The translations under genes were made by a program, and so were the position numbers. Below the pieces are notes generated by a model that made no database searches, had not been told where the DNA came from, and saw nothing but the letters and a program-made list of their open reading frames with translations. Of a DNA stretch of 64,000 bases, positions 4,473 to 32,100 are shown piece by piece (position 1 is the stretch's first letter; each line of letters begins with the position of its first letter). Origin of the DNA: Acrocarpospora phusangensis (GTDB lineage: Bacteria > Actinomycetota > Actinomycetes > Streptosporangiales > Streptosporangiaceae); NCBI RefSeq assembly GCF_016862995.1, contig NZ_BOOA01000003.1, positions 124,001 to 188,000 on the forward strand, written 5' to 3'.

Positions 4473-4480
4473 CCTGCGGA

Positions 4481-4510: not shown

Positions 4511-4524
4511 CGGGGGTGGATGGG

Positions 4525-7773: not shown

Positions 7774-7898
7774 GGAGCTCCTTGTGGAACCTGGTAATGC
7801 ACGCGACCGTATAGACGATCAGTTACACCAAAATGTCCGTAATGTTCCCGGCCTGAAACCGGGTTTCACGGTCCAAATCCCGCATGTCCGGACCTGCG

Positions 7899-8972: not shown

Positions 8973-9054
8973 CGCCCCTCTCGCTGAGAAGGGCAACTCT
9001 GAGCTGGTACGACGGGAATGAGGATGGCGGAATCCTCAGTGCGTACAAGTACCC

Positions 9055-10173: not shown

Positions 10174-10283
10174 GATCCGTCCCCCATTCGTTCATGATCG
10201 ACGGCCTGGATTACCTCCTCTCCTCTGGTTCCCGACATACCTCTACGAATACCCCGTATCTGGGCAAATTAGGGCGAAGATGC

Positions 10284-10793: not shown

Positions 10794-10820
10794 GGCCGAA
10801 ATATTAGCCGCACAAGCGCT

Positions 10821-10861
10821 GTTCGACAAAACATCTGTCGTGCATATAGTTTGTGCGACAA
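10821..10861. promoter_or_regulatory. Probable MarR operator and promoter for the monooxygenase genes
   Basis: The divergent intergenic region contains an imperfect inverted repeat (GTTCGACA at 10821-10828 against TGTCGTGC at 10836-10843) and a short palindrome TTGTGCGACAA (10851-10861). A rightward promoter fits: TTCGAC (10822-10827), 17-nt spacer, TATAGT (10845-10850). The repeats cover this promoter, as expected for a repressor site. Confidence 0.5.
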
Positions 10862-10908
10862 CTCATCTGGGATGCAGAGCGCATTGCTCGGCGGGAGAGG
10901 GCGAACAG

Positions 10909-14810: not shown

Positions 14811-15731
14811 ATGTACACCGTCCCCGACCAGACCGGCAAACTCGTCGTCGTCACCGGCGCCAACAGCGGCACGGGCAAGGAGGCCGTCCGCCGCCTGGCC
14901 GCCGCTGGCGCCCGCGTCGTCATGGCCGTGCGCACGCCCGCCAAGGGCGAGCGCGCCCGCGACGAGATCCTCGCCCGCCACCCGCACGCCCAGCTGGAGG
15001 TGCGCCGCCTCGACCTGGCCGACCTCGCCTCCGTCGCGGCGTTCGCCGACCGCCTCACCGCCGACGGCGTCCCGCTCGACCTGCTGGTCAACAACGCGGG
15101 GGTGATGGCCGTGCCCACCCGCATGACCACCGCCGACGGCTTCGAGCTGCAGTTCGGCAGCAACTACCTCGGCCCGTTCGCCCTCACCGTACGGCTCCTG
15201 CCGCTCCTGCTCGCCGCTCCCGCGCCCCGCGTCACCACCATGAGCAGCGGCGTCGCCAACTTCGGCCGCATCGACTTCGAGGACCTCCAGTGGGAACGCC
15301 GCCGGTACCGTGCCGGTCTCGCGTACGCCCAGTCCAAGCTGGCCGACCTCATGCTGACCCAGCACCTGGCCGTCCTTGCCGCCCAACGCGGCTGGAACCT
15401 GCTCAGTACGGCCGCCCACCCCGGCTACACCCGTACCAACCTCCAGACCGCCGGCCCGAACCTCGGCCGTCCCGCTCCCTCCCGCCGGATCTCCTTCTTC
15501 CTCCGCGTCAACCCCCTTCCCTCCCAAGCGGTCGAACCCGGCACGGAACCCCTCCTCCACGCCGCCACCAGCCCCGACGTCACTCCCGCCGGCTACTACG
15601 GCCCCAGCCGCTGGTTCGGCCTGGTCGGTCCCACCACCACGGCCACCATCACCCGCCGGGCCCTGAACCCCACGGTCAACGCTCAGCTCTGGGCGCGATC
15701 AGAGCAGCTCACCGACGCCTCCGTCCGCTGA
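14811..15731 (+). CDS. Short-chain dehydrogenase/reductase
   Basis: The 306-aa SDR has the NAD(P) motif [16 protein letters not shown], a catalytic Ser region [10 protein letters not shown] and active-site YAQSK. Arg residues after the second strand ([12 protein letters not shown]) suggest NADPH. The C-terminal part resembles WWOX/retinol-dehydrogenase-like SDRs. GGGAG lies just before ATG 14811. The AGACC operator array should make expression responsive to the divergent TetR protein's ligand. It converges with the LAL regulator gene, with only 7 nt between them. Confidence 0.87.
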
Positions 15732-15738
15732 ACCCGGC

Positions 15739-18615
15739 TCACTTCGGGGTCAGGTCGCGTTGCACGGTGGCATACCAGGCGGCTATCTCGGTACGGCGGG
15801 ACGCGCCCAGCTTGGTGAGGATGTGCTCGACATGGGCGGAGATCGTCTTGGGGGAGAGGACGAGGCGTTCGGCGATCTGGCGGTTGGTGAGACCGGCGGC
15901 GACGAACTGGGAGACCTCGAATTCGCGGGCGGTCAGGGGATGCCAGGGGACGGTGGCGCGCGGCGAGGTGAGGGGGAGGGCGTCGGCGGCGGTCAGGACG
16001 GGGATGGCGCCGGCCTTGGTCGCGTCGGCGCGGAGCCGGGTGAGGAGACGGGCGGCTTCGGCGTGCTGGCGCGACTTGACGGCGACGGCCGCGAGGTCCA
16101 GCAGGCACCAGGCGCCTTCCCAGAACCGGCGTCTGGTCTGCCAGGAGAGCTGGGCCGACTGGAGGGCGAGCTGGGCCGCGGGCAGGTCGCCGCGCGCGAA
16201 CAGGAGGAGTCCGCGGGCGTGCTCGACGGCGGGCAGCGTGCCGGGGATGGCGCGGGCGGTGAGCACGGCGGACACCTTCTCCGCCCAGGCTTCGGCGGCG
16301 TCGGTGTCGCCCAGCGCCAGGTGCGCGCGCACGCCGGTGAGCAGGTAGGGGAACAGGTAGGCGGCGTCGGTGACGTTGGCGGAGGCCTGGTGGCCGCGTT
16401 CGCACAACGTGACGGCGGTCGCGTGGTCGCCCTGGCAGCGGGCGGCTTCGGCCAGACCCCACAGCGGTGGCGACAGGCGCTGGAGCTCGGCCATCGCCTC
16501 GCCCTGCGCGGAGGCCTCGCCCAGCAGGCCGGCGGCGGCGGTCCAGTCGCCGCGCCCCATCGCGAGATAGCCGAGCACGTACTGCGCGGTGATCCGCGTG
16601 GTGATGCCGCCGCGCCCGTCGGCGAGGGCGTGCTCCGCGGTCCGGGTGGCCGTGTCCCAATCGCCGACCGCCCAGTGCACGTGCGCCAGATGCGCGGCCA
16701 TGTAGTGCCGGTGGTTCCAGAGTTCGACCTGCTCCGCGTACTGCACGCCCTCCTCCAGCCAGGCCTGCGCGCGGTCGTACTCGACCAGCACCGACGCGCT
16801 CGTCCCGACCATCCGGTAGCCGCGCGCCACCTCCGCCTCCCGGTCGGCGCGGCAGGCCCGGCGCACCGCCTCCTCCAGGTACGGCCAGCCCGGCTGCATC
16901 CGCCCCGCGAACACCAGCACAGAACCCAGTGTCGCCTCGGCGTTGAGCGCCGCCTCCTCGTCGTCGATGCGCAGGCTCTCCGCGCGGGCGCGCTCCCCCT
17001 GCTCGATGGCCTCGTCGAGCCGCCGGTCCAGCATGTACGCGGCGGCCATCGCCGACCACAGCCTGGTCCGTTCCCGGTCCGCGCCGGCCACACCTTCCAG
17101 GCTGTCCAGGGCGGTGCGCAGCGTCCGTACCCGGGTGTCGAGGTCGGCGCCGAGCAGGTGCGCGACCGCGACCATGCGCGGCGCCAGGTCCGCCGCCGCC
17201 CGCACCTCCCCGACGCCGACGGCCAGCTCGTGCGCCGTCCGGTACGCCGCGGCCGCGGCCTCGTTGTCGTCGGTGGCCGCCGCTTCGTCGCCCAGCGCGG
17301 CGAACAGGCGGACCCGGTCCATGACGGGAAGCCCGGCGGGCAGGTTGCGCACGGCCCGGCGGTACAGGTCGAGCGACTCCCGGTGGGCGGAGATGGACGC
17401 GGCCTCCCTGGCGGCGGCGAGCGCGTGGCGGTGGGCGTCCTCGGTGCGTTGCGCGTGCTCGAAATGGGCGGAGACGAACTCGTCGCGGTAGCCGCGCTCG
17501 GCCGCCGTGCGGGCCACGCTCTCGTGCAGGCGGCGGCGTACGGGCAGGTCGGTGTCGGCGTAGAGGGTGTCGCGGATCAGCGCGTGCCGGAAGTCGAAGG
17601 TGGCGGCGTCGGTGCCGGGCAGGACCAGGAGGGCGTCCCGGAGTTCGCGTAAGGCGGTGGCGACGTCGGACGGGTCGGCTTCGGTGACCGTACAGAGCAG
17701 ATCGAAGTCGAAGGAGCGGCCGATGACGGCCGCCGCGGAGGCGACCTGGCGGGTACGCGCGGCCAGGCCGTGCGCGCGGCTCAGCACCGCCTCGGCCAGC
17801 GTGTCCGGCACCGCTGCGGCCAGCACGGCCGCGCCGGACTGCGGGGTGAGCAGGTCCTGGTCGACGGCGGCCAGCAGCTCCTCGACGTGCAGCGGGATGC
17901 CGTCGCTGCGGCTGTGGATGGCCGCCACCACCTGCGCCGGGGCCGGCCGGCCGAGCACGGTCCCGGCCATGGTGGCGATCTGCTCGGGCCTGAGGCGCGG
18001 CAGCCGGATCTCCTCCGCGAGCCGCTGCGTCAGCAGCCGCGCCCGCAGGTCGCGCATCGGCAACTTCGGATACAGCTCGTCGCTCCGGTACGCGCAGGCG
18101 ACCAGCATCGGCCTCGTCCCCAGCCGGGGCGGCAGGTGGCCGACCACGTCGAGGCTGAGCTGGTCGGCCCAGTGCAGGTCCTCCAGGATCATCAGCAGCG
18201 GCCGGCCCGGTTCCGCGGTGATCAGCAGATCCACCAGGTCCCGCACCAGCAGCCGGCGCCGGTGATGCGCGTCCCCCTCGGCGGTGGAGATCGCCCGCAC
18301 CCGGGACGCGATCGCGTGCCCGAGGTCGCTCAGCTCCGGTTCCGGAGCCGCCGCCAGATCCCCGGCCAGATCCAGCAGCAATCCCGCGAACGACTGCATG
18401 TCGCCCGGGAACGCCGCCGCGCGCACCACCATGAAGCCCTTGGCGCGGGCGCGCCGCTCGATCGCGCCCAGCAGGCGGGTCTTGCCGATCCCCGCCTCAC
18501 CGGCGACGAGCAGCAGCTGACCGGCTCCGTCCGCGACCTCGGCGAGACGGCGCCCGGCCAGCGCCACGAACTCGTCCCTGCCGACCAGGACGGGCGACTG
18601 GATCACGCCCGGCAT
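15739..18615 (-). CDS. LAL-type LuxR regulator with AAA-like ATPase
   Basis: The 958-aa protein starts with a STAND/AAA ATPase module (PVLVGRDEFVAL, Walker A GEAGIGKT, Walker B LLMILEDLHWAD). A long helical TPR-like middle follows, then a C-terminal LuxR helix-turn-helix (LTAREFEVSQFVAAGLTNRQIAERL then SPKTISAHVEHILTKLGASRR, in parts). This layout matches MalT-like large ATP-binding LuxR regulators. ATG 18615 is chosen because AGAGGGGG lies upstream; a longer TTG form is possible. Targets are unknown; the adjacent SDR and SCO4226-type genes are candidates. Confidence 0.88.
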   Translation of the reverse strand: MPGVIQSPVLVGRDEFVALAGRRLAEVADGAGQLLLVAGEAGIGKTRLLGAIERRARAKGFMVVRAAAFPGDMQSFAGLLLDLAGDLAAAPEPELSDLGHAIASRVRAISTAEGDAHHRRRLLVRDLVDLLITAEPGRPLLMILEDLHWADQLSLDVVGHLPPRLGTRPMLVACAYRSDELYPKLPMRDLRARLLTQRLAEEIRLPRLRPEQIATMAGTVLGRPAPAQVVAAIHSRSDGIPLHVEELLAAVDQDLLTPQSGAAVLAAAVPDTLAEAVLSRAHGLAARTRQVASAAAVIGRSFDFDLLCTVTEADPSDVATALRELRDALLVLPGTDAATFDFRHALIRDTLYADTDLPVRRRLHESVARTAAERGYRDEFVSAHFEHAQRTEDAHRHALAAAREAASISAHRESLDLYRRAVRNLPAGLPVMDRVRLFAALGDEAAATDDNEAAAAAYRTAHELAVGVGEVRAAADLAPRMVAVAHLLGADLDTRVRTLRTALDSLEGVAGADRERTRLWSAMAAAYMLDRRLDEAIEQGERARAESLRIDDEEAALNAEATLGSVLVFAGRMQPGWPYLEEAVRRACRADREAEVARGYRMVGTSASVLVEYDRAQAWLEEGVQYAEQVELWNHRHYMAAHLAHVHWAVGDWDTATRTAEHALADGRGGITTRITAQYVLGYLAMGRGDWTAAAGLLGEASAQGEAMAELQRLSPPLWGLAEAARCQGDHATAVTLCERGHQASANVTDAAYLFPYLLTGVRAHLALGDTDAAEAWAEKVSAVLTARAIPGTLPAVEHARGLLLFARGDLPAAQLALQSAQLSWQTRRRFWEGAWCLLDLAAVAVKSRQHAEAARLLTRLRADATKAGAIPVLTAADALPLTSPRATVPWHPLTAREFEVSQFVAAGLTNRQIAERLVLSPKTISAHVEHILTKLGASRRTEIAAWYATVQRDLTPK

Positions 18616-18737
18616 CGGTACACCCCCTCTCAATTCTCAGTATCCGCCTCCCGCGCAATAGGTCACCTGACCGATGAAGGGCCCCCCGCCCGGCGAGCAC
18701 GCTTACGCGTATTCCGAACAAACGAGAGGAGCCGGAA

Positions 18738-18989
18738 ATGGCGAAGTTCATGGATGTGCACAGCGGATTCGTCGGCGTCACCGAGGACCAGCTGCGCGAG
18801 GCGCACGAGCGCGACCTGGCCATCGAGGAGAGCGAGGGCGTGCACTTCGAACGCGCCTGGCTCGACCCGGAGTCCGGCAAGGTCTTCTGCCTGTCCTCGG
18901 GCCCGTCCAAGGAGGCGGTCCTCCGCGTCCACGACAAGGCCGGCCACCCCACGACCGAGATCTACGAACTGCCGATCGAGGTCGAGTAG
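18738..18989 (+). CDS. SCO4226-family small protein (putative nickel-binding)
   Basis: The 83-aa protein begins MAKFMDVHSGFVGVT and continues with GVHFERAWLDPESGKVFCLSS and GHPTTEIYELPIEVE (in parts). It closely matches my recollection of the DUF4242/SCO4226 family, a ferredoxin-like-fold protein reported to bind nickel. ATG 18738 follows GAGAGGAG. It stands alone between divergent and converging neighbours. The physiological role is not established. Confidence 0.85.
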   Translation: MAKFMDVHSGFVGVTEDQLREAHERDLAIEESEGVHFERAWLDPESGKVFCLSSGPSKEAVLRVHDKAGHPTTEIYELPIEVE

Positions 18990-19005
18990 CCCGCGGGACA
19001 GGTCT

Positions 19006-19023
19006 CGGCGTCCGGAAACGCCG
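19006..19023. terminator. Short hairpin between converging genes
   Basis: CGGCGT (19006-19011) pairs with ACGCCG (19018-19023) around the loop CCGGAA. It lies between the SCO4226-type gene and the converging TetR gene. The stem is only 6 bp. Confidence 0.4.
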
Positions 19024-19050
19024 CGGCCTGGACGCGGTTGAACGCGCGGT

Positions 19051-19638
19051 CTATTGGCCGGATCTGTCCGGACGGTAGCGCAGTGCGTCGATCATGAATT
19101 CGATGAGACGGCCCGCCTGGTCGCGCCGCTCGGGGTCGCCCGCCGCCATGGCGATGCCGCTCAGCCCGATCAGCAGGTCGTCGGCGTTGGCGTCGTCCCG
19201 GATCTCGCCGGCCGCGGTGGCGGCGTCGAGGAGGCGCGCGATCGCGCCGGTGAGGAGGTTACGGCTCTGCGCGTACGGGTCGCCGCCGGAGGCGATGACC
19301 GTGCGCAGCGCCTCGGCCATGCCGAGCTTGGTGGCCATGTAGTCGATGAACCGGTGCATCCAGGCGCGGAGGGCCTCGACCGGCGGCTCCTCGGCGAGCA
19401 GGTCGGCGGCCGCGTCGCAGACGGCCGCCAGCTCGTTGCGGTACGCGGCCTCGATCAGCGCCTCCCGGGTGGGGAAATGCCGGTACAACGTGCCGATCCC
19501 GACCCCCGCCTCCTTGGCGATGAGGTTCACGCTGGCGTCCGGACCGTGCTCGGTGAAGGCCCGTACGGCCGCCGCCAGCACCCGGTCGCGGTTCCGCAGG
19601 GCGTCGGCACGGCGCGCCCGCGGTGGTGTGCCGGTCAT
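19051..19638 (-). CDS. TetR-family repressor
   Basis: The 195-aa protein has a typical TetR helix-turn-helix (RDRVLAAAVRAFTEHG, IAKEAGVGIGTLYRHFPTREAL) and a SBP56-like C-terminal helical domain ending MIDALRYR. ATG 19638 follows AGGAGA; an upstream in-frame start lacks a ribosome site. It is divergent from an SDR gene, with two CGGAG-N4-CTCCG palindromes between them, which are its likely operators. Confidence 0.86.
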   Translation of the reverse strand: MTGTPPRARRADALRNRDRVLAAAVRAFTEHGPDASVNLIAKEAGVGIGTLYRHFPTREALIEAAYRNELAAVCDAAADLLAEEPPVEALRAWMHRFIDYMATKLGMAEALRTVIASGGDPYAQSRNLLTGAIARLLDAATAAGEIRDDANADDLLIGLSGIAMAAGDPERRDQAGRLIEFMIDALRYRPDRSGQ

Positions 19639-19667
19639 GAAGGGTCTCCTGTTCGAGTGTTTGCAAA

Positions 19668-19708
19668 CGGAGCGCACTCCGCATATGTTGAATCCGGAGT
19701 TCGCTCCG
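19668..19708. promoter_or_regulatory. Two TetR operators
   Basis: The palindrome CGGAG-N4-CTCCG occurs twice, at 19668-19681 and 19695-19708, 27 bp apart, in the space between a TetR gene and a divergent SDR gene. An AT-richer stretch (CATATG) lies between the copies and may hold a promoter. Confidence 0.8.
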
Positions 19709-19759
19709 CTTTAGCTTACCTCGTCGTGGCCGCGAGGCCACAGAATGATCAGGTCGACC

Positions 19760-20689
19760 ATGTCACGTATCACCACGCCTTTTGACGCCAAATCGACTGC
19801 CGCTGACGTCCTCGACGGCGTCGACCTCACCGGCCGGCGCGCGATCGTCACCGGTGGCGCGTCGGGCATCGGTATCGAGACCGCACGCGCCCTCTCCGCC
19901 GCCGGAGCGGACGTCACTCTCGCCGTACGCGACCAGGAAGCCGGACGGCGAGTGGCCAAGGAGATCGCCGGCCAGACGGGCGGCGCCGTCGCGGTGGCGT
20001 CCCTGGAGCTCACCGATCGGGGCTCGATCGACGCGTTCACCGGCGGCTGGGAAGGGCCGCTGCACATCCTCGTGAACAACGCCGGGATCATGGCGCTGCC
20101 TGAGCCGCGCCGGACCCCGGAAGGGTGGGAGCTCCAGTTCGCCACCAACCACCTGGGACATTTCCGGCTCGCGCTCGGGTTGCACGACGCGCTGGCCGCC
20201 GCGGGTGGCGCGCGCATCGTCTCGGTCAGCTCCAGCGCGCACCGCATGTCACCGGTCGTCTTCGACGACATCCACTTCGCGCACCGGCCGTACGACGGAT
20301 GGTCGGCCTACGGTCAGTCGAAGACCGCCAACGTGCTCTTCGCCGTGGAGGCGGGCCGGCGGTGGGCGGGTGACGGAATCACCGCCAACTCATTGATGCC
20401 CGGAGGAATCCGGACCGGACTGCAGCGGCACCTCGGGGACACGCTGCCGCCCGACCTTCAGGAACTCTTCGACACCTACGACTGGAAGACCCCCGAGCAG
20501 GGAGCGGCGACCTCTGTCCTCCTGGCGGCGTCCCCGCTGCTCGACGGCGTCACCGGGCGGTACTTCGAGGACTGCGACGAGGCCGCGGCCACGGCCGACC
20601 CCACCGCCGGCGAGGGCGTCCGCACGTACGCGCTCGACCCTGAGGCCGCCACCCGCCTGTGGGAGGTCTCGCTGGATATGGTGGGGTAA
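19760..20689 (+). CDS. Short-chain dehydrogenase/reductase
   Basis: The 309-aa SDR has TGGASGIG, NNAGIMAL, a Ser-rich catalytic strand VSVSSSAHR and YGQSK. It has the typical family opening MSRITTPFDAKSTAADV, which supports ATG 19760 over the ATG five codons earlier. It belongs to the same broad WWOX-like SDR group as the SDR at 14.8 kb but is clearly a different gene. It is probably repressed by the divergent TetR protein. The substrate is unknown. Confidence 0.86.
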   Translation: MSRITTPFDAKSTAADVLDGVDLTGRRAIVTGGASGIGIETARALSAAGADVTLAVRDQEAGRRVAKEIAGQTGGAVAVASLELTDRGSIDAFTGGWEGPLHILVNNAGIMALPEPRRTPEGWELQFATNHLGHFRLALGLHDALAAAGGARIVSVSSSAHRMSPVVFDDIHFAHRPYDGWSAYGQSKTANVLFAVEAGRRWAGDGITANSLMPGGIRTGLQRHLGDTLPPDLQELFDTYDWKTPEQGAATSVLLAASPLLDGVTGRYFEDCDEAAATADPTAGEGVRTYALDPEAATRLWEVSLDMVG

Positions 20690-20720
20690 CGATCTTGCCT
20701 GATTCCCTACAATTCGGGCG

Positions 20721-21189
20721 GTGAAGATCGATCACCTGGAAGACGCGGACGCCGTCCGTACGGCGGTGGCCGCGGCGCGAGCCGGCCTGGTCGACCGGGA
20801 GCTGGTCGCCGAACTCGTCGCGCTGTGCGCGGTGGCGGGGGAGCACCTGCTGGTGATCGGCGCTCCCGGGACGGCCAAGTCGGAAGCCGTACGCCGGGTC
20901 GCCGCCGGTCTGGGCGGCAGCTACTTCGAGTACCTGCTGGGACGGTTCACCGAGCCCAACGAGGTGTTCGGGCCGGTCGACCTGCGGCGGCTGCGCGAAG
21001 TGCTATCTGGGGCTCGACGACGGACTGTTGGTGCCGACCACGCAGGTTCCGGCGCCGTCCGCCGCGCTCTGGCGTGACCATCTGCTGGCCGGTGAATCGG
21101 GGCGGCTGGCGGTGCTGATGCCGGGACAGGCTCTGGTGACCGACACCCCGTCGCGGCCGGTGGATGCCATGACGCTCGCCGGGCCATGA
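20721..21189 (+). pseudogene. Deletion remnant: N-terminus of a MoxR AAA ATPase joined to the tail of a bpX5-like gene
   Basis: A GTG-started frame gives the first ~94 residues of a MoxR ATPase: an N-terminal helix, Walker A GAPGTAKSE, then FTEPNEVFGPVDLRRLRE. At about 21000 the similarity stops, so Walker B, sensor 1, the Arg finger and the lid are missing; MoxR proteins are usually 300-400 aa. From 21001 a different frame encodes about 62 residues (YLGLDDGLLVPTTQ to AMTLAGP) ending at TGA 21187-21189. This resembles the C-terminus of a bpX5-type protein of MoxR-vWA-propeller systems, by recollection. The MoxR frame itself runs on nonsensically to 21077. A large internal deletion is the simplest explanation. 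Confidence 0.7.
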
Positions 21190-22802
21190 GACTGCCGGCC
21201 GCGCTGGCTCCCTGGTCGGATTCGCTGGCGTTCCTCGCTCCCGATCTGGCGGTCGCGCTCGGACCGCTGGTCCGGGGCATCGACCATCTGGTGTCCGGCC
21301 ACGATCGGCCGGGCGTCGAGCAGGGGAGCACGGACGGCTTCGAAGGGCTCTCCAGGCGGGGGCATCCGGAGCTCATGCTCGTCTCCGAATGGCTGCTCGC
21401 CGACGAAGCGCCGGTCGAGTTCCTGCGCAGGGCGGCGCAACGGGAACTCCTGCATCTGGCCCCTGCGGTACGGCGCCCGCGGCGACGTGGACGGGTGGCG
21501 GTGCTCGCCGACACCGGCCCTGGGCAGGCCGGTGCGGGACGGCTGGTGCAGCTCGCATCCATGCTCGTGCTGCATCGGCGCGCCGCCGCTCTCGGGACCG
21601 ATCTGGCCGTCGGCGTTCTCGGCCAGGAGCCCGGCAGCTGGCGGACCGGTGACCTGTCTGCGCTGCTCAGGGACTGGTTGCGCGCGCGACGTACAACCGA
21701 ACCCGATGCGGACGACGTCTCAGCGTGGACGGACGCGGATGACGACGTCTGGGTGTTGACCGGTCCTCGGCTGGCCGCGCGGCTGACCGGGCGTCGGCAG
21801 GTGATCAGCAGCCGGGAGTCGCAGTGGGGCGCGGAGGGCGTCACCCATGTGCGGGTCGCGTTCCGGGACAGCAGCGCCGAATTGGCTCTGCCCACCGGAC
21901 CGGTCGCCGTACGCGCCTTGCGGGGCCAGGGTCTCACCCGCGCGGCGACGCCCGAGGAACCTGCTGCGACATTCCGATTCCCCTTCTTCCCCAGCTCGTC
22001 CCGCCGGATTCTCGCCCGAGGCGGCGCGGCCGACGAACTCGTCTCCATCTACGTGCCCCCGTCGCGCGGCGCGTCCGTACGCAAGCCGGTCCTGCACCGT
22101 CTGACAGGGCCGGTCCTCGCCGCGTCCGTGCTCGGCAGGCGCCTCATCGCGATGATCGTGCGCGACGGGACGATCCGCATCGAGGTGATCGGTAGCTCCC
22201 TCGGCAACGTCGCCGACCTGCGCGTACCCGTCGAGACACTCGCCCTCGACCCGGACGCGATCTGCTCGGCAGGGCTCCTCCCGCTCTACTACCTCGGCGG
22301 AGACGTCATCTGCCCTTCCGGCGGCGACTGGTGGCGGCTCACCACCGACGGCACCGCCCTGAAAACGAACTACCTCGCCTTAACGCCCCGATCGGGCAGC
22401 CAGTTCGATCAGCCGCAGTTCATCACCAGGCCAGCCGATCCGAAAGCCGAGATCATCCTGGGCGACGGAGGCCACGCCCGATCGACGGACGGCTCCCGCT
22501 GGCAGACCTTCGACCCGCACGGCACAGAGAGCACCGTCACCGTGGAGCCGAACTCCAAAGTGCTCCGGCTGATGTTCGACGGCATGGGCCCGACCTTGGT
22601 GACCTGCTCCAAGGCAGGAGTCCTGGTCCGCCTTGTACGCCCCTGGGAGACCCGCGTCCTGACCACCTGGTCAGGCCTTCCGACCACCCCGATCGTCCAC
22701 CCCACCCTGCCGTTGATCGCAGGCGTCGACGCCAACGGCGGACTCCTCGCGGGCCACCTCTTCACCGGTGACATCATGCTCCGGACGGCGGTAGGCGAAT
22801 GA
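21186..22802 (+). CDS. vWA-like plus beta-propeller protein of a MoxR-vWA-bpX ternary system
   Basis: The 538-aa protein has an N-terminal helical region (GHPELMLVSEWLLADE) and then a vWA-like strand-loop RVAVLADTGPGQAGA with RLVQLASMLVLHRRAAALGTDLAVGVLG (in parts). The usual DxSxS is replaced by DTGPGQ. From about residue 280 on there are repeated WD-like beta-propeller strands (GNVADLRVPVETL, CSAGLLPLYYLGGD, GVLVRLVRPWE). In this ternary system a MoxR ATPase is thought to work with the vWA protein. ATG 21186 overlaps the preceding stop, and the stop overlaps the next ATG by 4 nt. A TTA codon at 22380-22382 (Leu) hints at bldA control. Confidence 0.7.
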   Translation: MRLPAALAPWSDSLAFLAPDLAVALGPLVRGIDHLVSGHDRPGVEQGSTDGFEGLSRRGHPELMLVSEWLLADEAPVEFLRRAAQRELLHLAPAVRRPRRRGRVAVLADTGPGQAGAGRLVQLASMLVLHRRAAALGTDLAVGVLGQEPGSWRTGDLSALLRDWLRARRTTEPDADDVSAWTDADDDVWVLTGPRLAARLTGRRQVISSRESQWGAEGVTHVRVAFRDSSAELALPTGPVAVRALRGQGLTRAATPEEPAATFRFPFFPSSSRRILARGGAADELVSIYVPPSRGASVRKPVLHRLTGPVLAASVLGRRLIAMIVRDGTIRIEVIGSSLGNVADLRVPVETLALDPDAICSAGLLPLYYLGGDVICPSGGDWWRLTTDGTALKTNYLALTPRSGSQFDQPQFITRPADPKAEIILGDGGHARSTDGSRWQTFDPHGTESTVTVEPNSKVLRLMFDGMGPTLVTCSKAGVLVRLVRPWETRVLTTWSGLPTTPIVHPTLPLIAGVDANGGLLAGHLFTGDIMLRTAVGE

Positions 22803-25165
22803 CCACCTACCGCGGCCGAGCCACCGCAACCGCCTTCATCCTCGACGTCCCGCTGATCGGGGAGCACGAAGCCCGCCGACGAGTGATCGCATTCTGGCGG
22901 CACGGCGCCGAGCTCCGCGTCCTCCCCCATGGGCACTGGCTCCTCCATCTCGCCGAACCGACCTCCGTACGAGCGGAACTGGCCCCCGGCCTGCTCGCCG
23001 AGCCCGGTGCGGACGAGATCGCCTGGAAGCACGCCGGCAGCACCCGGGTGGAACGACTTTCGGCACTCCCCACCCTCAACCCGGCGGACTGGCTGAACTC
23101 CACAACCCTCCGCATCGCCCACCTCAAACCGTTGGAACCCCCAGAGCCTCCGGTCCCGTCGATCGAACGGATGCACAAGCCGGCACCGGACCTACGCGCG
23201 GCAGCCAAGATCGGCCGATCATCCCCGCTCACCGACCGCGCCACAAGCGAACTACGCGCACGTCTCCCGCATGCCAGAAGTTCTGGCGGAAGCCACGCGG
23301 CACGACTCTGGTCACATGTCCGCAGCGCACTGGTCTGGCTGGCCGTCAAGAGTCCCGCCTTCTCGCTGGTACGCCGCCGCCACCAGCGCTACCTGCGCGA
23401 CCTCACCCGCGCCTTCGAACAACGACGCTGGGACGACGCGCTCCGGGAGGCGATCGCCCTCGGCGGCTCCGAGACCGCCCTGCGAACGCTCCGGCTCCCC
23501 CGCCGTCGCGGTTCGCTCCGCCCTTCCCTGACCACCGCCTCGTCAAGCGCCTCCTTGTCGTACGGCCCGACGGTCTACGAGCACCTCCAAGACCTGTACC
23601 GAAGCGCCGCCGAAGCACTGGAACGCGCAGGCGAGGTGATCGAGGCCGCGTTCGTCCTGGCCGATCTCCTCGACAGCCCGGCCGAGGCCGTGGACCTCCT
23701 CGAACGCCACCGGCACTGGCGCCTGGCCGCCGAACTCGCCGAAGGCCGCGACCTGTCCGCCGATCTCGTCGTACGCCTGTGGTGGCGCGCGGGCGACCGC
23801 GGCCGGGCGGTGGACCTCGCCCGATCCCGGGGGGCGTTCGCCACCGGCATCCTCCGCCTGGCGACCGTCGACGCCGCCGCGGCTCTGGAGTTGCGCCATG
23901 CCTGGGTCCACGACCGGCAGGCCGCCGTAGACCACATCGGTGCGGTCGAAGCCGCTTGGCCGGAGGCGAAACTGCGCCCGATGGTCGTCTCCAGCATCCA
24001 GACCGGAATCGCCCTGGGCGGAGCCGACGCCGGCCACCTGTTCGCCTACCTCGCCGCGTACCAGCCAGGCGAGGCCGCCCGCAGTGCCGTACAAGCCCTG
24101 GTGGACAGCGACGACCCGGCGACCCTGCTCGCCAGAGCTCGATTCGGTACGACATTCGCCGAGCTCAGGTGCGACGACCCGGTAGCCGACCGCGCCCTGG
24201 CCACCGCCGGGCTGCGGGCACTCGTCCGCGACGGCGGCTGGACGCTCGACCGCAAGACCCTCGGCCGCGTCACGAAGGCCCTGTCGAGTCGCGCGGATCC
24301 TCTCGCCGTGGCCGACCTGGCCGACGTACCACGCGCTCCACGATCGGCCGCCGAGGCGCCGTTCGTCACGGCTTCCGGCCCGCCGGGGACGATCGCGCTC
24401 TTCGACGCCGCCGTGCTCGGCAATGGGGGCGTGCTGGCCGCGTGCGGAGACGCGGGCACGTTCCTGCTCACCCGCGACGGCCGGGTACGGGCACGCTGGG
24501 ACATTCCCGCGCACCAACTCGTCATCGCCGACCACGGGGGTGCCGCCCTGCTGGTGAACCGCCGGGAATCCGTCCGGGACGTACACCGGCTTGACCTGGC
24601 CACTCGTAAAGTCCGCCGTTGGACGGCCCTACGCGTCAAGGCGATCCTGCCGTCCTACGACGGAGGACTGCTCACCGCGGTCAGCGATGAGGGCATCGTG
24701 GTCTTCGACGTCCTCGCGGACAGCCCCCGAATGGTCTGGCGGGAGATGACGGAGGCGGCCAAGATCCTTTCCGTCAATCGCACGGCCACGAGTATCTCCG
24801 CGATCGGCCTGGTGTCCGTGAACGGTCGGCCCCAGCTGGAAGCCTGGCGCTGGGAACTGCCCGGCTGGACGTTGCGCGGGCGCACCCGCGTGAGATCTGA
24901 CGAGTCGCTACACGTCCTGGCCTGCGGAAAGGCCCTCAGCCCCACGCTCTCGGCCGGGGACGTCCACGCGACCGTGGACGACGGCGTCGCCGAAGTGCGC
25001 GCGGCCCAGGGAGAGGTGATGTTCAGGGCCGCCTTCCCCGACGGCGACACGTTGGGTCTGCGATCGCACGCGGGGATCACGACGCTCTTCGACTCCGGCG
25101 GCCGGATCGTTGCCGTCGACGAACACGGGACCGTCCAAGCCAACCTCCGCCTGCGGATCGCCTAG
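22799..25165 (+). CDS. bpX6-like beta-propeller protein of a MoxR-vWA-bpX ternary system
   Basis: The 788-aa protein has an N-terminal domain beginning ATATAFILDVPLIGEHEARRRVIAFW (in parts), which matches my recollection of the bpX6 family. Next are a basic linker (about 135-230), a helical repeat middle (YEHLQDLYRSAAEALERAGEVIEAA, LAAELAEGRDLSADLVVRLWWRAGDRG, in parts) and a C-terminal propeller from about 520 (LFDAAVLGNGGVLAACGDAGTFLL). It probably acts as sensor or scaffold in a predicted biological-conflict system. It overlaps the vWA gene by ATGA. No enzymatic motif was seen. Confidence 0.7.
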   Translation: MTTYRGRATATAFILDVPLIGEHEARRRVIAFWRHGAELRVLPHGHWLLHLAEPTSVRAELAPGLLAEPGADEIAWKHAGSTRVERLSALPTLNPADWLNSTTLRIAHLKPLEPPEPPVPSIERMHKPAPDLRAAAKIGRSSPLTDRATSELRARLPHARSSGGSHAARLWSHVRSALVWLAVKSPAFSLVRRRHQRYLRDLTRAFEQRRWDDALREAIALGGSETALRTLRLPRRRGSLRPSLTTASSSASLSYGPTVYEHLQDLYRSAAEALERAGEVIEAAFVLADLLDSPAEAVDLLERHRHWRLAAELAEGRDLSADLVVRLWWRAGDRGRAVDLARSRGAFATGILRLATVDAAAALELRHAWVHDRQAAVDHIGAVEAAWPEAKLRPMVVSSIQTGIALGGADAGHLFAYLAAYQPGEAARSAVQALVDSDDPATLLARARFGTTFAELRCDDPVADRALATAGLRALVRDGGWTLDRKTLGRVTKALSSRADPLAVADLADVPRAPRSAAEAPFVTASGPPGTIALFDAAVLGNGGVLAACGDAGTFLLTRDGRVRARWDIPAHQLVIADHGGAALLVNRRESVRDVHRLDLATRKVRRWTALRVKAILPSYDGGLLTAVSDEGIVVFDVLADSPRMVWREMTEAAKILSVNRTATSISAIGLVSVNGRPQLEAWRWELPGWTLRGRTRVRSDESLHVLACGKALSPTLSAGDVHATVDDGVAEVRAAQGEVMFRAAFPDGDTLGLRSHAGITTLFDSGGRIVAVDEHGTVQANLRLRIA

Positions 25166-25304
25166 AACGCGGCTACGTCGCACGGCGCGCTGCTGGGTGC
25201 GGTGGCTCATGGGGCCTGCGCTGGTCGGGCCGGGGTCGGAGGTCCTGGGTTCCCAGCCGAAGGCGGACACCTTTCGCACGGTGGTCGTCCGCGGCGGACG
25301 CGAG

Positions 25305-25335
25305 GAAGCGGTCATGCCCCCTGCATGGCCGCTTC
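25305..25335. terminator. Bidirectional terminator hairpin
   Basis: A 13-bp stem (25305-25317 with 25323-25335), with a single position that would form a G-U pair in RNA and the loop CCCCT, lies between the bpX6-like gene and the converging LGFP-like gene. Confidence 0.75.
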
Positions 25336-25375
25336 CGGTGCGTTGTCGTTCGGTTGGGAGGCCCATCCGGCGGGC

Positions 25376-25969
25376 CTAGTACTCGTACACGTTGGTGATG
25401 CTCCACGGGCCGCAGTCCGAGCTGAACGTCCCTCGGTCGCAGCCCTGGACGACGAAGCGCCAGGTGTCGGTCGTACGGCCGTGGCTGACGGAGCTCTCGT
25501 AGTCGACGGCGGGGTTCTTGGTGATGATGAACTGGCCGCTCCACGGCGTCAGGCGCTTGACCTTGACCTGGTAGGTCTTGTTGCCCAGCTGGGCGTCCTT
25601 GCTCCAGCGGACGTTGAAGAAGTCCCAGTCCCGGCCCAGGCCGCTCCACTTGAAGACCATGTTCGGGCCCTTCTCGAAGACGCGCAGCAGCGTCCCGTTG
25701 CCCAGATTGGGAGACCAGACGATCTTGCCGGACTCGAAGCGCTGCCAGGAGCCGGCCTTGTCCGGATAGCCGAACTCCTTGGTGACGGGACAGCCGTAGA
25801 CGCTGTTCTCGCCGCCGTTGGAGCGCCAGAGGCCGCCGATGAGGCTGCCGTTCGGCGCGACCAGAGCGGGATCGCAGGAGCTGGTGGCGGCGTGGGCCGC
25901 GGTGGGGGAGATCAGGGCGAGTCCGGTGGCGAGCGCGGCGGCCGCCAGCAGGTTGCGGGTGATGGACAT
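25376..25969 (-). CDS. Secreted LGFP-like protein, paralogue 1
   Basis: The 197-aa protein has a signal peptide (1-27, LLAAAALATGLALISPTAAHA). A mature region follows with the repeat-like motif VYGCPVTKEFGYPDKAGSWQRFESGKIVWSPNLGNGTLLRVFE (in parts), which resembles one LGFP repeat of actinobacterial cell-wall proteins. Four cysteines are shared with the upstream paralogue (ACDP/SCDP, CPVTKEFGYP, GCDRGTFSSDCGPW). It starts 33 nt after that gene and probably shares its transcript. The function is unknown; cell-surface carbohydrate or peptidoglycan association is a guess from LGFP. Confidence 0.75.
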   Translation of the reverse strand: MSITRNLLAAAALATGLALISPTAAHAATSSCDPALVAPNGSLIGGLWRSNGGENSVYGCPVTKEFGYPDKAGSWQRFESGKIVWSPNLGNGTLLRVFEKGPNMVFKWSGLGRDWDFFNVRWSKDAQLGNKTYQVKVKRLTPWSGQFIITKNPAVDYESSVSHGRTTDTWRFVVQGCDRGTFSSDCGPWSITNVYEY

Positions 25970-26002
25970 GGGAGAACTCCTCAGTCGGGGGGTTGAACGC
26001 GG

Positions 26003-26599
26003 TCAGTGGGCGACTTTGATCGAGTTGGCGATGCTCCACGGGCCGCAGTCGGAGCTGAAGGTGCCGCGGTCGCAGCCCTGGACGATGAAGGCGAAAGTGC
26101 TGGACGAGTGGCCGTTCGTGGTGGAGCCGACGCCGTTGTGCACGAAGGGCGTCAACGAGAACTGGCCGCTCCACGGGGTCAGCCGGGCCTGCTTGACCTG
26201 TACGGCGCGCCCGCCGTCCTGGCTGTACCGGACGTTGAAGAAGTCCCAGTCCCGGCCCAGGCCGCTCCACTTGAGGACGATCTTGCCGTCCTTCTGGAAG
26301 ACCCGGATGAGCGTCCCGTTACCGAGGTTCGGCGACCAGACGATCTTGCCGTTCTGGAAGCGCTGCCAGGAGCCGGCCTTGTCCGGGTAGCCGAACTCCT
26401 TGGTGACCGGGCAGCGGTAGACGCTGTTCTCGCCGCCGTTGGAGCGCCAGAGGCCGCCGATGAGGCTGCCGTTGGGGGCGATCAGAGCGGGGTCGCAGGC
26501 GGCGGTGGTGGCCTGGGCCGACGAGGGGGCGGCCACGATGGCAGCGGCGGCGGTGACGGTGGCGGCGAGACCGAGCAGGGCGCGAGCGGTGCGGTTCAT
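26003..26599 (-). CDS. Secreted LGFP-like protein, paralogue 2
   Basis: The 198-aa protein has a signal peptide (RALLGLAATVTAAAAIVAAPSSAQA) and then nearly the same mature domain as the downstream paralogue (APNGSLIGGLWRSNGGENSV, KWSGLGRDWDFFNVRY). The two differ mainly in the stretch before the last GCDRGTFSSDCGPWSI block. Start ATG 26599 is chosen because AAAGGAAC precedes it; an extended frame upstream has no ribosome site or signal peptide at its start. The first gene of a probable two-gene operon reading leftward. Confidence 0.78.
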   Translation of the reverse strand: MNRTARALLGLAATVTAAAAIVAAPSSAQATTAACDPALIAPNGSLIGGLWRSNGGENSVYRCPVTKEFGYPDKAGSWQRFQNGKIVWSPNLGNGTLIRVFQKDGKIVLKWSGLGRDWDFFNVRYSQDGGRAVQVKQARLTPWSGQFSLTPFVHNGVGSTTNGHSSSTFAFIVQGCDRGTFSSDCGPWSIANSIKVAH

Positions 26600-26895
26600 C
26601 GGAGTGTTCCTTTCGGTGTGTCTTTCGTTTCTTCGCACCCCCTTTGTACGAGGCTCCACTTTCATTCCGGCTACCACGACTTTCAAGCCGCTTGCATTTT
26701 CTGGCCGCGTTATCGACGACACCATGATGTGATGTATTGGCAGGTCAGAGCAGCTATGCTGGAAATATATGGCACGCGTGGAAAATGCTCCAAAAAAGGC
26801 ATGCGCATGGACGGAAATGATTCCGAAGCTCCCTCGATGGGGAGTCGGCAGGCCGCTCGGGCCACCTAAATTCCGTCGCCGAAGCCGAGGGGGAT

Positions 26896-26915
26896 ATTTC
26901 GCGATATTGCGAAAT
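26896..26915. promoter_or_regulatory. Palindrome, candidate operator
   Basis: ATTTCGC (26896-26902) and GCGAAAT (26909-26915) are perfect inverted arms around GATATT. It is AT-rich for this genome and far from any start codon, so the bound protein and target are unclear. Confidence 0.35.
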
Positions 26916-27196
26916 TGTCGCCTTCGAGCAGGGCTCGGTTGCGCAGCACGCTCAGGCTAAACCGGCCCTCCGGACGTCCGCCCCCGGGCTAACCCCCCAA
27001 AACGCCCAGGGCTACCCCGGAGATCAAGAACCCAGGACAGAGATCGAGGGCTCAGGCGCTGAGCGGCGGAAATCGGGCCACGAACGGCGATGGAACTGAC
27101 TCACACCAGGACTCACCACGGGGAAGATCCGACATCGCGAACCCGCCCACCTTGACGACCTCCGAGCGTGAGCGAGCCGCCAGGAGATTTGTGTAC

Positions 27197-27238
27197 GTCG
27201 CGTGGGGTTGAGGGGATGTCGCGTGGGGTTGAGGGGAT
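27197..27238. repeat. Tandem 21-bp direct repeat, two copies
   Basis: Two identical adjacent 21-bp units beginning GTCGCGTGGGG lie at 27197-27217 and 27218-27238. They may be a simple slippage duplication. No function is evident. Confidence 0.8.
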
Positions 27239-27345
27239 GACGTCAGCCGCCCGCCCCGCTTGCCGGTGACCGTTCGCAGGGCGGGTTCGCATCCCTTCGT
27301 CCCTGCTAGGGTGATTTGCGAGTGACGAGAACAGGGAGATCAGAC

Positions 27346-27505
27346 GTGGCAGGTGACGACGACATCTCCGGGTGATACCCGGGAGTGATCGGCCGTCGGC
27401 GGGCGCCTAGGAGTGCCGTCGCCGTGGCTGTGTCGTCGTTCCCATGAATCCTTTTCTCCCTGCTGGGCGGTTCTGTCGCGCCTGGCATCCCACGCGAGGT
27501 CTCTC
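27346..27505 (+). promoter_or_regulatory. Structured leader of the ABC-F gene with possible 9-residue leader peptide
   Basis: A GTG at 27346 after AGGGAGA starts a frame encoding VAGDDDISG (initiator read as Met), ending TGA 27373-27375. A CCGGG-TGATA-CCCGG hairpin starts over its last codons. A longer-range stem can pair ACGACGACA (27356-27364) with TGTCGTCGT (27431-27439). ABC-F resistance genes are often controlled by ribosome-stalling leaders, so attenuation is plausible but not proven. Confidence 0.45.
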
Positions 27506-29122
27506 ATGTCCGATGCATTCGTCATCTGCTCGAACCTGTCCTTCTCCTGGCCTGACGACACCCCCGTCTTCCAGGATCTTTCCTTCACTGTCGGCGCGGG
27601 TCGTACCGGGCTTGTCGCGCCGAACGGTGCGGGGAAGAGCACCCTGCTCAAGCTGATCGCCGGCGAGTACCGGCCAACCGGGGGGAGCGCGTCTGTGAAG
27701 GGCGTGCTCGGGTACCTCCCGCAGAGTCTGCCGTTCGCCGGTGACCTGACGGTGGCGGAGGTGCTGGGAATCGCGCCGGTGATCAGGGCGATCGACGCCA
27801 TCGAGGCCGGTGACGCGAGCGAGGAGCACTTCGCAACGATCGGCAACGACTGGGACATCGAGGAGCGCACTCGTGCCCAGTTGGATCGGCTTGGGCTGGG
27901 GGATGTCGCGCTCACGCGGCGGTTGGGCACTCTCAGCGGGGGCCAGGTTGTGTCCATCGGGCTGGCGGCGCAGCTGTTGAAGCGGCCGGATGTGCTGATT
28001 CTGGACGAACCGACCAACAACCTCGATCTGGATGCGCGGCGGAAGCTCTACGGCGTGCTTGAGGACTGGAACGGGTGTCTGCTGCTGGTGAGCCATGACC
28101 GGGCGCTGCTCGATCGTATGGATCGCATCGCCGAACTCGATCGGGGCGAGTTGCGCTCGTATGGCGGGAACTTCAGCGCGTACGAGGAGGCCGTACGTGC
28201 CGCGCGGGAGGTCGCGGAGAAGAATGTCCGCAACGCGGAGACCGAGTTGAAGCGGGAGAAGCGGGAGATGCAGCAGGCCCGGGAGCGGGCCGCGCGGCGG
28301 GCCGGGAACGCGGCGCGCAACCTCAAGGACGCCGGGCTGCCGAAGATCTTCGCGGGGACGATGAAACGCGACGCCCAGGAGTCGGCGGGGAAAGCCAACG
28401 AGATGCACGCCGCTCGGGTCAGCGACGCCAAGGCCAGGCTCGACGAGGCAGGCCGTGCCCTGCGCGACGAGAAACGGATCGCGCTGGAACTCCCCGGCAC
28501 CAACGTCCCGGCCGGACGTACGGTCTTCTTCGGAGAACGGATGCAGGTCTACTACGGGGAACGCGCGCTCTTCGCGGGCGAGGGCGCCGACCTGGAGATC
28601 CGGGGTCCGGAGCGGATCGCGCTGACCGGTCCCAACGGCGTCGGAAAATCCACCCTGCTCCGGCTGATCAACGGCGACCTGGAGCCGGAGAGCGGCACCG
28701 CCAAGCGGGCGGACGGCCGCGTCGCCTACCTCTCTCAGCGGCTCGACCTGCTCGACCTCGACCGTACGGTGGCGGAGAACCTGGCCGATTCCGCGCCCAC
28801 GATGCCCGAGTCACAGCGAATGAACCTGCTCGCCCGCTTCCTGTTCCGGGGCTCCCGCATCCACCTCCCGGTCGGCGTCCTCTCCGGCGGAGAACGCCTG
28901 CGCGCCACCCTCGCCTGCGTCCTGTACGCCGAACCGGCTCCCCAACTGCTCCTCCTCGACGAACCGACCAACAATCTCGACCTGGTCAGCGTGGGCCAAC
29001 TGGAAAGCGCGCTCACCGCCTACGAAGGCGCATTCGTGGTGGTCAGCCACGACGAACGATTCCTGGCGCAGATCAACGTCAACCGCTGGCTACGACTCTC
29101 CGACGGCCGACTGCACGCGTAG
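27506..29122 (+). CDS. ABC-F family ATPase
   Basis: The 538-aa soluble protein has two ABC domains and no membrane segments. Domain 1 has Walker A APNGAGKST, signature LSGGQ and Walker B VLILDEPTNNLD. A charged linker (KNVRNAETELKREKREMQQARE region) follows. Domain 2 has Walker A GPNGVGKST, signature LSGGE and LLLLDEPTNNLD. ABC-F proteins act on the ribosome E site; some rescue stalled ribosomes or protect from antibiotics. The structured leader favours an antibiotic-responsive role. ATG 27506 is chosen by alignment of the first ABC motif; an upstream in-frame start would add about 31 unrelated residues. Confidence 0.88.
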   Translation: MSDAFVICSNLSFSWPDDTPVFQDLSFTVGAGRTGLVAPNGAGKSTLLKLIAGEYRPTGGSASVKGVLGYLPQSLPFAGDLTVAEVLGIAPVIRAIDAIEAGDASEEHFATIGNDWDIEERTRAQLDRLGLGDVALTRRLGTLSGGQVVSIGLAAQLLKRPDVLILDEPTNNLDLDARRKLYGVLEDWNGCLLLVSHDRALLDRMDRIAELDRGELRSYGGNFSAYEEAVRAAREVAEKNVRNAETELKREKREMQQARERAARRAGNAARNLKDAGLPKIFAGTMKRDAQESAGKANEMHAARVSDAKARLDEAGRALRDEKRIALELPGTNVPAGRTVFFGERMQVYYGERALFAGEGADLEIRGPERIALTGPNGVGKSTLLRLINGDLEPESGTAKRADGRVAYLSQRLDLLDLDRTVAENLADSAPTMPESQRMNLLARFLFRGSRIHLPVGVLSGGERLRATLACVLYAEPAPQLLLLDEPTNNLDLVSVGQLESALTAYEGAFVVVSHDERFLAQINVNRWLRLSDGRLHA

Positions 29123-29155
29123 CCACTCTGGAGGCCATAAATATGTGGAAGATAG

Positions 29156-32100
29156 TCATGTCCAGACTCGAGTGAGCCGCTTGCCGAACAAATGGCCGTT
29201 ACCGACCTTTTGTTCATTCGCGATTATTACTCTCAATCGTGAGTTCTCGGCCAACGGCGCGAGGTCGAGTCCTGGGGTGGCATTGTCTAGCCACAGAGTG
29301 CGGAGTCGGCTCACATGTGCGAGCGGTGAAAGGTCTTGTAGTAGACCGCAGTTGCCCAGGCTGAGGTAATTCAGATTCTCCAGGGCGACAAGAGGGCGCA
29401 GGTCGTGCACTGGAGTTCTATCCAGGGTTAGAGAGGTGAGCGAGACACACCCCGAGAGGGGGGAGATGTCGTCAAGTTCCTTGATCCCAGCGAGGCCGAG
29501 GTGGTCAAGACTGAGCTGGGAGAGCGCTTCGAGATGGGTAAGCCGCTGGTAGCCATGGAGGAACAGACTCTCAAGGGATGGCGCTTGTGAGACGACTTCG
29601 CGCATGGATCCCACTATCGGTGCGCCGGAGAGACCTAGCGACGTAAGACGGTCGGGTGCCGGCAGCCAATGCCAGCGGGTCAAATTGATTGCGTCCATGA
29701 GATGGAGGCGCGTCAACTTGGATAAGCCGCGGAGAGGCTCGAAGTCTGTTACGTCTGACATTTGATAAAGCTGAAGTGCGATTAAGTTGTGAAGGTTGGA
29801 AATAAAGCCGATGTCTTTCGTATTCCATATATCAAGACTTGTCAAAGAATCGAGCTGGCGAACTGTCCGCAGTGCCGTCTCGGTCGGCCTTCCGGACATG
29901 GTCAGGGAAGTGAGTGACTCGCGATGAGGGAGCAACGGGCTCAAGTCGTCTATCACAGGGGTGTGGATAATCACGTTGTTTTGCGGTGGGAGATGACGTA
30001 ATGCCTTGAGCTGTCCGACGGTATCTACCCGAAGCCTCTCGTCCGTGATGTTCGCGCAGGAAAGCACGCGCTTGGCGTACAGTTCGGGCTCGAAATAGCG
30101 CCAGTCTGTGATCAACTCGCGTATGACTTCGCTTCGGCCATCGGACGCGTAGCCGGACAGCACGTTGAGAGCATGGGGGCCGTTGATCAAACAGACTGTT
30201 CTGACGCAGGCGCGGGCAACGGCCGGGGAGAGCCCACTTAGATCGGTGGGCAGTTGGTGAAGAACGATCTGGCCGGCGTTCGCCAGGGACCGGGCCGAGC
30301 CCACGTCCCGGGGCGGGATGAGGTCGCGTAGACATCCGTTCACCGCCTCCCGTAACCGCTCGGGCACCGACGGCAGCGTCTCCAAACACGCACACACGAG
30401 AACTTTGAGCCGCCGCGCATACCGCGGCTCACTCTCCATCCGCCCCAGCAACCCCGTAAGCAGTTCCTCCCGCAGCGGCGCGTTCGCGTGCCCGGCCGCC
30501 ATCACCACCACTTCACGCCACTGATCGCGATGCGCGTTGTGCACCAGCGGCTCGATATCCCCATCCTCAGCGGCAGCCCGCGCGGTCAGATACTCCTGAA
30601 CCGTGCGATGCACGAAGTCGATACGACCGTCCACCGGCTCGCGAATTACGCCACTGCGATCGAGCAGATAGCCCAGCACCTGAACCCCGGTCGCCTGCAC
30701 CCGCGGCATGGCCGACACGACCTTCTCCACCCGCGCCAACGTGGCGGATTTCGGCAACTCGACCCGGTTGGTCATCGACAGCTGCCAAGCCAGCTCCTGC
30801 AAGATCTGGATCTTCTGAGCCCGATCCAGATGCACCTGCCCATAACTGGGAATGGTCCGTTCCGCGTCCCGCCGCTCCAGCAGCATCTCCAACGCCGCCG
30901 CGTACAACCCCATACGATCCGGCGGCAACTCCGACGCACGATCGAGGTTGAGCGCACACAACATGGCCGCCAGCAAAGGCGTGGCCGCGAGCCCGCGCAG
31001 ATGAGCCGCGCCGTCGAGATGCGACAGCAGCCTCGCCTGGACGACAGGCAGATGCTCGACCGGACAAGGCAGGTCGGGGCTGTTCCTGATCGCTTCGTGC
31101 CAGTGTTCGACCAGCGCCCGCGTGTCCGAGGGCGTCATCCGCTCCAGGAACGCGGGCGCGAATCCCTCCTCGTCCAGCCACGACGACCGCGCCGCCGCCG
31201 GCCGGGTGGTGACCACCACCCGCATCGCGGGGAACTCGGCCAGCAGCCCGCGCAACCACGGCTTGATCGCCTTCCGCTGATTCCCGGTGAGCTCGTCCAC
31301 GCCGTCGACCAGCAGCAGCGCACGCCCCGACCACAGCTGCCGATGCACCCACCCGGCGGGCATGAGACCGGCCAGCGCCCCGGCGGCGAGGTCGAGGAAC
31401 TGCTCCGGCCTGGGCAGATCCCGGTCGGCGTAGCTGCGCAACTTCACCAGGAACGGCACACACCCGTTCCACTCGGCCAGTTCCCCCTCGAACCCGCCCC
31501 GCGCGGCGGTGATGGCCAGCCACCGCAGCAGCGTGCTCTTGCCGCCCCCGGCCTCGCCCCTGAGCAGCATCCTGCGCCCCTGACCGAGCGCGCTCTCCAC
31601 CCGCATGGTCGCGGGCTCGGCCGCCGCGGCGTGCCAGGACACGGGATCGGCCCGGCCGGGCATGGCCGAAACCGAAAGACTGATGTACGCCACACTCAAC
31701 GACGTCCGCGGCCGGAACCGCTCGATCCGTACGCCCAGCAGTTCGAGCACGTCGAGCGTCTGCGACACATGCTCCAGGTAGCGACGGCGGAACCCGGTGT
31801 CCCGGTCGGTGCCCTCCGGGGCCTCCAGTGTGCGTACGGGAAGCCGTTCCAGCACGGTGGCGATCTGCTCGCCCAGCCCCGACAGGCGCGTGAGCGTCTC
31901 GGTGGCCGCCCGCGGCTGGAACTCGGGCAGGTGCCGCACGATCCGTACCAGGCAGTCGCAGCATTCGTCGAGCACGACCTCGTACAGGCGGGACGCCGCT
32001 TCACCGAGGTCCTTCGGACCGGGCAGTCCCGCTCGTACGGCTTGCGCCAGCCGTACCGGGTCGGCGTCGGCGGTCAGCAGGGCGCGGTCGGAGAGGTCCG

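Follow-up and report, generated by a model that had tools for sequence, protein, structure and literature searches.

The stretch of DNA analysed, hereafter the window, comprises 64,000 nucleotides of a contig of Acrocarpospora phusangensis. It holds a run of genes on the forward strand that begins with the remnant of a bpMoxR-type AAA+ ATPase gene, continues with the end of a bpX5 gene, and closes with two long open genes, one at the position of the vWA gene and one for a third component with a bpX6 domain (Table 1). The same families occur in the same order in the beta-propeller MoxR-vWA ternary systems described by Kaur, Burroughs, Iyer and Aravind (2020, PMC7159879), and the corresponding Pfam families are bpMoxR (PF20030), bpX5 (PF19921) and bpX6 (PF19922). 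Common to those systems and the window are the P-loop variant GxxxTAKS, which these authors describe for the beta-propeller subclass, a third component with a bpX6 domain, and a divergent protein at the vWA position. Compared with the systems as described there, however, the window is without most of MoxR, half of bpX5 and the membrane segment of the third component, a segment that the relatives carry. The original prediction had called the locus a ternary system, but the unit has four genes once bpX5 is counted.

Table 1. Features of the locus, in window coordinates
Feature	Coordinates	Strand	Basis or remark
bpMoxR AAA+ ATPase gene, 5' remnant	20721..20998	+	PF20030 6.3e-33; end of BLASTN homology
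Reading frame now encoded, 118 aa (MoxR stub plus out-of-frame residues)	20721..21077	+	
Deletion junction	20998..21004	.	Net 1,057 bp missing relative to P. mira and P. phitsanulokensis (P. mira locus about 4754-5814)
bpX5 3' remnant, 61 codons plus stop, without its own start	21004..21189	+	65% identical to the bpX5 of P. mira
vWA-position gene, 538 aa, divergent vWA then presumed beta-propeller, frame open	21186..22802	+	
Third component, 788 aa, bpX6 domain, presumed TPR plus beta-propeller, frame open, membrane segment missing	22799..25165	+	
Site of the relatives' hydrophobic segment in the third gene	23285..23326	+	Hydropathy, anchor distances

The MoxR and bpX5 remnants and the deletion between them

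The MoxR stub starts with GTG at 20721, carries an intact Walker A motif (GAPGTAKS) at residue 47, and covers profile positions 3–84 of the 205 in PF20030 in a Pfam profile search, with about 92 of its codons being bpMoxR. Its DNA is 84% identical to that of Planotetraspora mira, and BLASTN homology to the loci of P. mira, P. phitsanulokensis and Embleya ends at 20998 in all three. The motifs of the intact relatives' MoxR that we take to be Walker B, sensor 1, ADRF and the lid region all fall 3' of the break and are absent here; the complete AAA+ core, present as a full gene in all three closest relatives, is thus missing from the window copy. These results bear out the original prediction of a normal MoxR start with an intact Walker A that ends near 21000, and of the loss of Walker B, sensors and lid. 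AAA+ enzymes depend on Walker B and the remaining parts of the core for ATP hydrolysis, and because these are missing we infer that the stub is unable to hydrolyse ATP and that the ATPase is dead.

Homology to both Planotetraspora loci restarts at 21003. The bpX5 protein of P. mira, itself a member of PF19921 (5.2e-11), matches window positions 21001-21180 with 65% identity over residues 70–130 of its 131 (E 3.0e-18), and the frame closes with a TGA at 21187-21189. A bpX5 gene between MoxR and vWA is a feature of the subtype, and of it only the equivalent of these residues is left; the 63-residue tail peptide, searched alone, has no match in Pfam. Measured between shared anchors, the window copy lacks a net 1,057 bases relative to the two Planotetraspora loci, and 1,230 relative to that of Embleya, the larger figure arising because the front of the Embleya bpX5 is longer. 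Alignment to the intact loci, which had been proposed as a check, thus places the break within MoxR and bpX5, and agrees with the earlier suggestion that a deletion of more than 1 kb took most of MoxR and the front of a bpX5-type gene whose end survives in another frame. The further idea of a MoxR fused to a bpX5-like tail is right at the level of DNA, but fails for the protein. Since 1,057 is not a multiple of 3, the two stumps lie in different frames and the MoxR frame runs into a TGA at 21075-21077, 108 bases before the vWA start, so that an in-frame fusion protein can be ruled out.

The genome is a draft assembly of 219 contigs and the stumps are without any decay, both of which would fit an error in which 1 kb present in the organism was dropped when short reads were joined. 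Sequence dropped in this way should usually reappear on a different contig or interrupt the one it came from, but the remainder of the P. mira MoxR matches none of the 219 contigs. The search was sensitive enough, since the same query recovers the MoxR of P. phitsanulokensis (93% identical) and of Embleya (65%) as well as distant MoxR proteins, 46–47% identical, in two genomes of the same genus. In addition, the matching stretch of P. mira has 72.8% G+C, which is not extreme for such a genome, and a junction error would leave unexplained both the loss of the membrane segment and the change in the Shine-Dalgarno sequence described below; we therefore think an assembly artefact improbable. A relocated piece or second copy of MoxR was also considered and is ruled out, as none was found in the assembly; likewise, bpX5 searches of the genome find the tail alone. 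Elsewhere in the genome PF20030 has six further matches, none above 61 bits, and the four that pass the cut-off coincide with members of the general MoxR family PF07726 (201–219 bits), of which the genome has seven matches outside the locus, five of them strong.

A different kind of MoxR-vWA ternary system, the FtsH-type (PF20005, fvmX7), is found in two Acrocarpospora genomes, one of them annotated (locus 6-11352) and the second assigned by matching frames and the same MoxR. Its MoxR also belongs to bpMoxR (PF20030 2e-70) and is 46–47% identical to that of the bpX system, but the partners differ, comprising an AAA/FtsH-like ATPase, a ThiF-like protein, an EAD1/E2-like protein and fvmX7.

Intact relatives and the two downstream genes

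The order MoxR-bpX5-vWA-bpX6 is found in P. mira, in P. phitsanulokensis (save for a premature stop in its third gene) and in Embleya, and more distantly in Methylobacterium. The closest intact copy is that of P. mira NBRC 15435 (NZ_BOOO01000027.1), in which MoxR (383 aa) and bpX5 (131 aa) are complete, and which, unlike the window, has the membrane segment, a strong Shine-Dalgarno sequence before the vWA gene, and a tyrosine-recombinase gene just downstream. This last gene, at 10477-11439 of the locus and some 55 bases past the third gene, encodes a phage-type tyrosine integrase (PF00589 7e-27); a similar frame follows the third gene in P. phitsanulokensis, and in Embleya a chitosanase gene stands there instead. 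P. phitsanulokensis NBRC 104273 (NZ_BOOP01000006.1) has the same four genes with MoxR and bpX5 complete, and bears a lesion in the third gene instead, namely a TGA at codon 36 (locus 7794-7796) in place of the TGG of P. mira, a one-base change seen in a draft assembly.

The system is rare. With the vWA protein as query, 84,980 species genomes yielded two loci, those of P. mira and P. phitsanulokensis, and a search of 72,556 plasmid records gave one match, Embleya sp. NBC_00888. In overlapping draws of whole genomes that include the window's own, the protein has matches in 1 of 5 genomes from the genus, in 3 of 297 from the family (the two besides the window being the same Planotetraspora genomes), in 4 of 345 from the order (one a marginal partial match) and in 4 of 394 from the class (three being weak and partial), while the bpX6 family PF19922 occurs in a single genome, the window's own, among 396 of the phylum. 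The third protein of P. mira also matches a plasmid of Methylobacterium bullatum, where the order is again a MoxR, a frame at the place of bpX5, a gene at the vWA position and a third gene; the bpX5 query has no match in that record, and the frame is assigned by position. A proteobacterial case is known from Pseudomonas syringae, where one region of genomic plasticity, RGP_32, holds a ravA ATPase, a bpX5 domain, an unnamed protein and bpX6 (PMC9677677), a likeness that is drawn from table rows of that paper rather than from sequence.

The vWA-position protein is 62% identical to that of P. mira, 61% to P. phitsanulokensis, 39% to Embleya and 29% to Methylobacterium. Neither it nor any of these four relatives passes the cut-off of a Pfam family, and its identity as a vWA protein rests on its place in the gene order, on its homology to genes at the vWA position in complete loci, and on the motif D109-x-G111-P112, which is invariant in all five sequences. 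When the C-terminal part was searched by profile against PDB sequences, the best matches were designed Pizza6 propellers, though weak (E 0.094 and 0.64), and structure prediction from three-row alignments was poor, with mean pLDDT values of 35.6 (the AlphaFold model of the vWA protein) and 41.5; neither the profiles nor these models confirm the vWA and propeller folds. The third protein, 64% identical to that of P. mira, reaches 27.1 bits against PF19922 (profile positions 5–65 of 170), just above the curated cut-off of 27, where its relatives score 49.8 and 53 bits; a profile search of solved structures with it gave no match. The gene identities first proposed are thus weaker than had been implied. 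The last two genes do overlap as described, by four bases (ATGA at 22799).

Two further changes in the window copy had gone without mention. The first is in the third protein, where the spacing between two anchors is 26 residues, compared to 101 in P. mira, 99 in P. phitsanulokensis and 134 in Embleya, and where the highest Kyte-Doolittle mean over 19 residues is 1.58, compared to 2.93, 2.75, 2.55 and 2.65 in the relatives. The membrane segment is kept in all four relatives and missing only from the window copy. A second, weaker hydrophobic stretch follows the main one in the relatives, with the two being about equal in Methylobacterium.

The second change concerns translation of the vWA gene. 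In the intact loci the stop codon of bpX5 and the start codon of vWA share bases (ATGA in the two Planotetraspora loci, GTGA in Embleya), and it is therefore likely that translation of the two is coupled. In the window copy, ribosomes entering at the MoxR start would leave 108 bases ahead of vWA, and the duplex between the vWA start region and the 16S tail has an energy of -2.2 kcal/mol, compared to -9.8, -9.3, -5.0 and -6.6 kcal/mol in the four relatives. With the coupling to bpX5 broken and the Shine-Dalgarno weak, translation of vWA is presumably reduced.

Age of the break

We fitted codon likelihood models to four sequences, those of the window, the two Planotetraspora genomes and Embleya, among which synonymous sites are saturated. 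When two omega classes were allowed and codon frequencies matched, the best-fitting neutral phase was zero, for the stumps and the two kept genes alike; the bound at 1.92 log units was about 0.017 substitutions per site for the stumps and about 0.013 for the kept genes, the chance of having acquired no stop codon included. An HKY neutral phase gave a stump bound of about 0.035 substitutions per site, and across the codon models the neutral time since the break comes to at most about 0.02–0.035 substitutions per site. One result stood apart: under a single omega class, a model whose neutral phase followed HKY favoured, by 16 log units, a phase of 0.08 substitutions per site for the kept genes on the window branch. 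We read this as an effect of base composition, as the HKY gain is larger on both Planotetraspora branches (15 log units for P. mira and 11 for P. phitsanulokensis, compared to 6 for the window); with matched codon frequencies the gain vanishes under either one or two omega classes. A two-ratio fit put omega lower, not higher, on the window branch, again with synonymous sites saturated. As judged by these models, the break is young relative to a divergence in which synonymous sites have become saturated. Between the kept genes and both Planotetraspora copies there are 21 indels, none of which breaks a frame, and coding constraint thus acted through most of the divergence.

These results bear on whether the two remaining genes are still in use, with the vWA-propeller and a now-soluble third protein acting without a MoxR of their own or borrowing another. 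Both genes stay open, over 538 and 788 codons, their 21 indels relative to the Planotetraspora copies include no frameshift, there is no relaxation on the window branch, and the seven PF07726 matches elsewhere in the genome could in principle supply a partner. However, the break is too young for later conservation to be measurable, the other MoxR genes are of the general family with no close bpMoxR among them, and normal translation of vWA is presumably impaired. Moreover, no vWA of this type lacking a complete adjoining MoxR was found beyond the window, the comparison being with three other full-length copies. We regard a functional remnant of this kind as quite unlikely. The long open frames and the lack of relaxed selection do count against inactivation, being also expected if the genes are used, but because the break is young they say little about present use.

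Probable inactivation of a predicted conflict system

We consider it probable, and with fair assurance, that the locus is a copy of the MoxR-bpX5-vWA-bpX6 system that was inactivated recently, the system being of a known kind that is predicted computationally to act in conflicts with invaders such as viruses. The activity of MoxR-vWA-beta-propeller ternary systems against invaders is a prediction of Kaur et al. (2020, PMC7159879), who also predict MoxR and vWA to be an ATP-driven chaperone pair and the third protein, with its membrane segment, to be a possible effector near the membrane. Among the literature matches listed we found no experimental test of the beta-propeller subclass, and among the PADLOC models none matching beyond a weak match of mad8 (0.0021) to the MoxR of P. 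mira. In an intact copy, a MoxR AAA+ ring would spend ATP and switch its co-chaperone, the vWA-propeller protein, and this protein would then act on the third one, a TPR/propeller protein anchored in the membrane. Some 1.06 kb would have been lost by illegitimate deletion, which took MoxR from just past its Walker A half to the end, together with the first half of bpX5, and on this basis we infer that the module is no longer working. Of the outcomes originally offered for the remaining genes, dead or dying is the most likely because the break is young, with action through another MoxR or a new role less so.

The loss may have come in steps, with the third protein losing its membrane segment first and becoming harmless or soluble, so that the ATPase could then be lost as well. 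The segment is missing from the window copy alone among five, the rest of the third gene has been conserved without loss of frame, most of the divergence predates the MoxR break, and the separate lesion in P. phitsanulokensis suggests a tendency of such copies to be lost. On the other hand, the data do not date one event relative to the other, a chance deletion is in frame one third of the time, and the stop of P. phitsanulokensis depends on a single base of a draft assembly, so that we consider this sequence of events possible, but doubtful. A bolder version, in which an in-frame loss of the membrane segment first made the third component soluble, selection maintained the altered system, the ATPase was dropped later, and a motor-less pair of vWA-propeller and TPR-propeller proteins still acts, seems to us very unlikely; were it true, the role of the pair might, for example, be that of a sensor, or of a dominant inhibitor acting on related systems.

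Under the favoured reading, that of recent inactivation, the strain lacks by nature both the ATPase and the membrane segment of a predicted system, which helps to assign roles to its parts. The system is now placed in filamentous actinomycetes (Streptosporangiaceae and Embleya). Two of the three Streptosporangiaceae copies carry lesions, in different genes and one of them a single base in a draft genome, as would be expected of a conflict system that is costly, dispensable, and gained and lost.

For the genes flanking the locus in window 15700-29200, matches in the genus and family are scattered, one gene or pair at a time, and there is thus little conserved gene order; the matches of the flanking genes were never adjacent in relatives, and no empty site with insertion borders was found. 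Two similar, adjacent, secreted-looking LGFP-repeat proteins are encoded on the reverse strand at 25376-25969 and 26003-26725, and their region corresponds to one orthologous stretch, 86% identical in DNA, in another genome. Also on the reverse strand, 4 kb from the broken system (29156-32398), lies a gene for an NLR-like NACHT NTPase that begins with an NNH1 domain and carries leucine-rich repeats, a kind of protein linked to defence.
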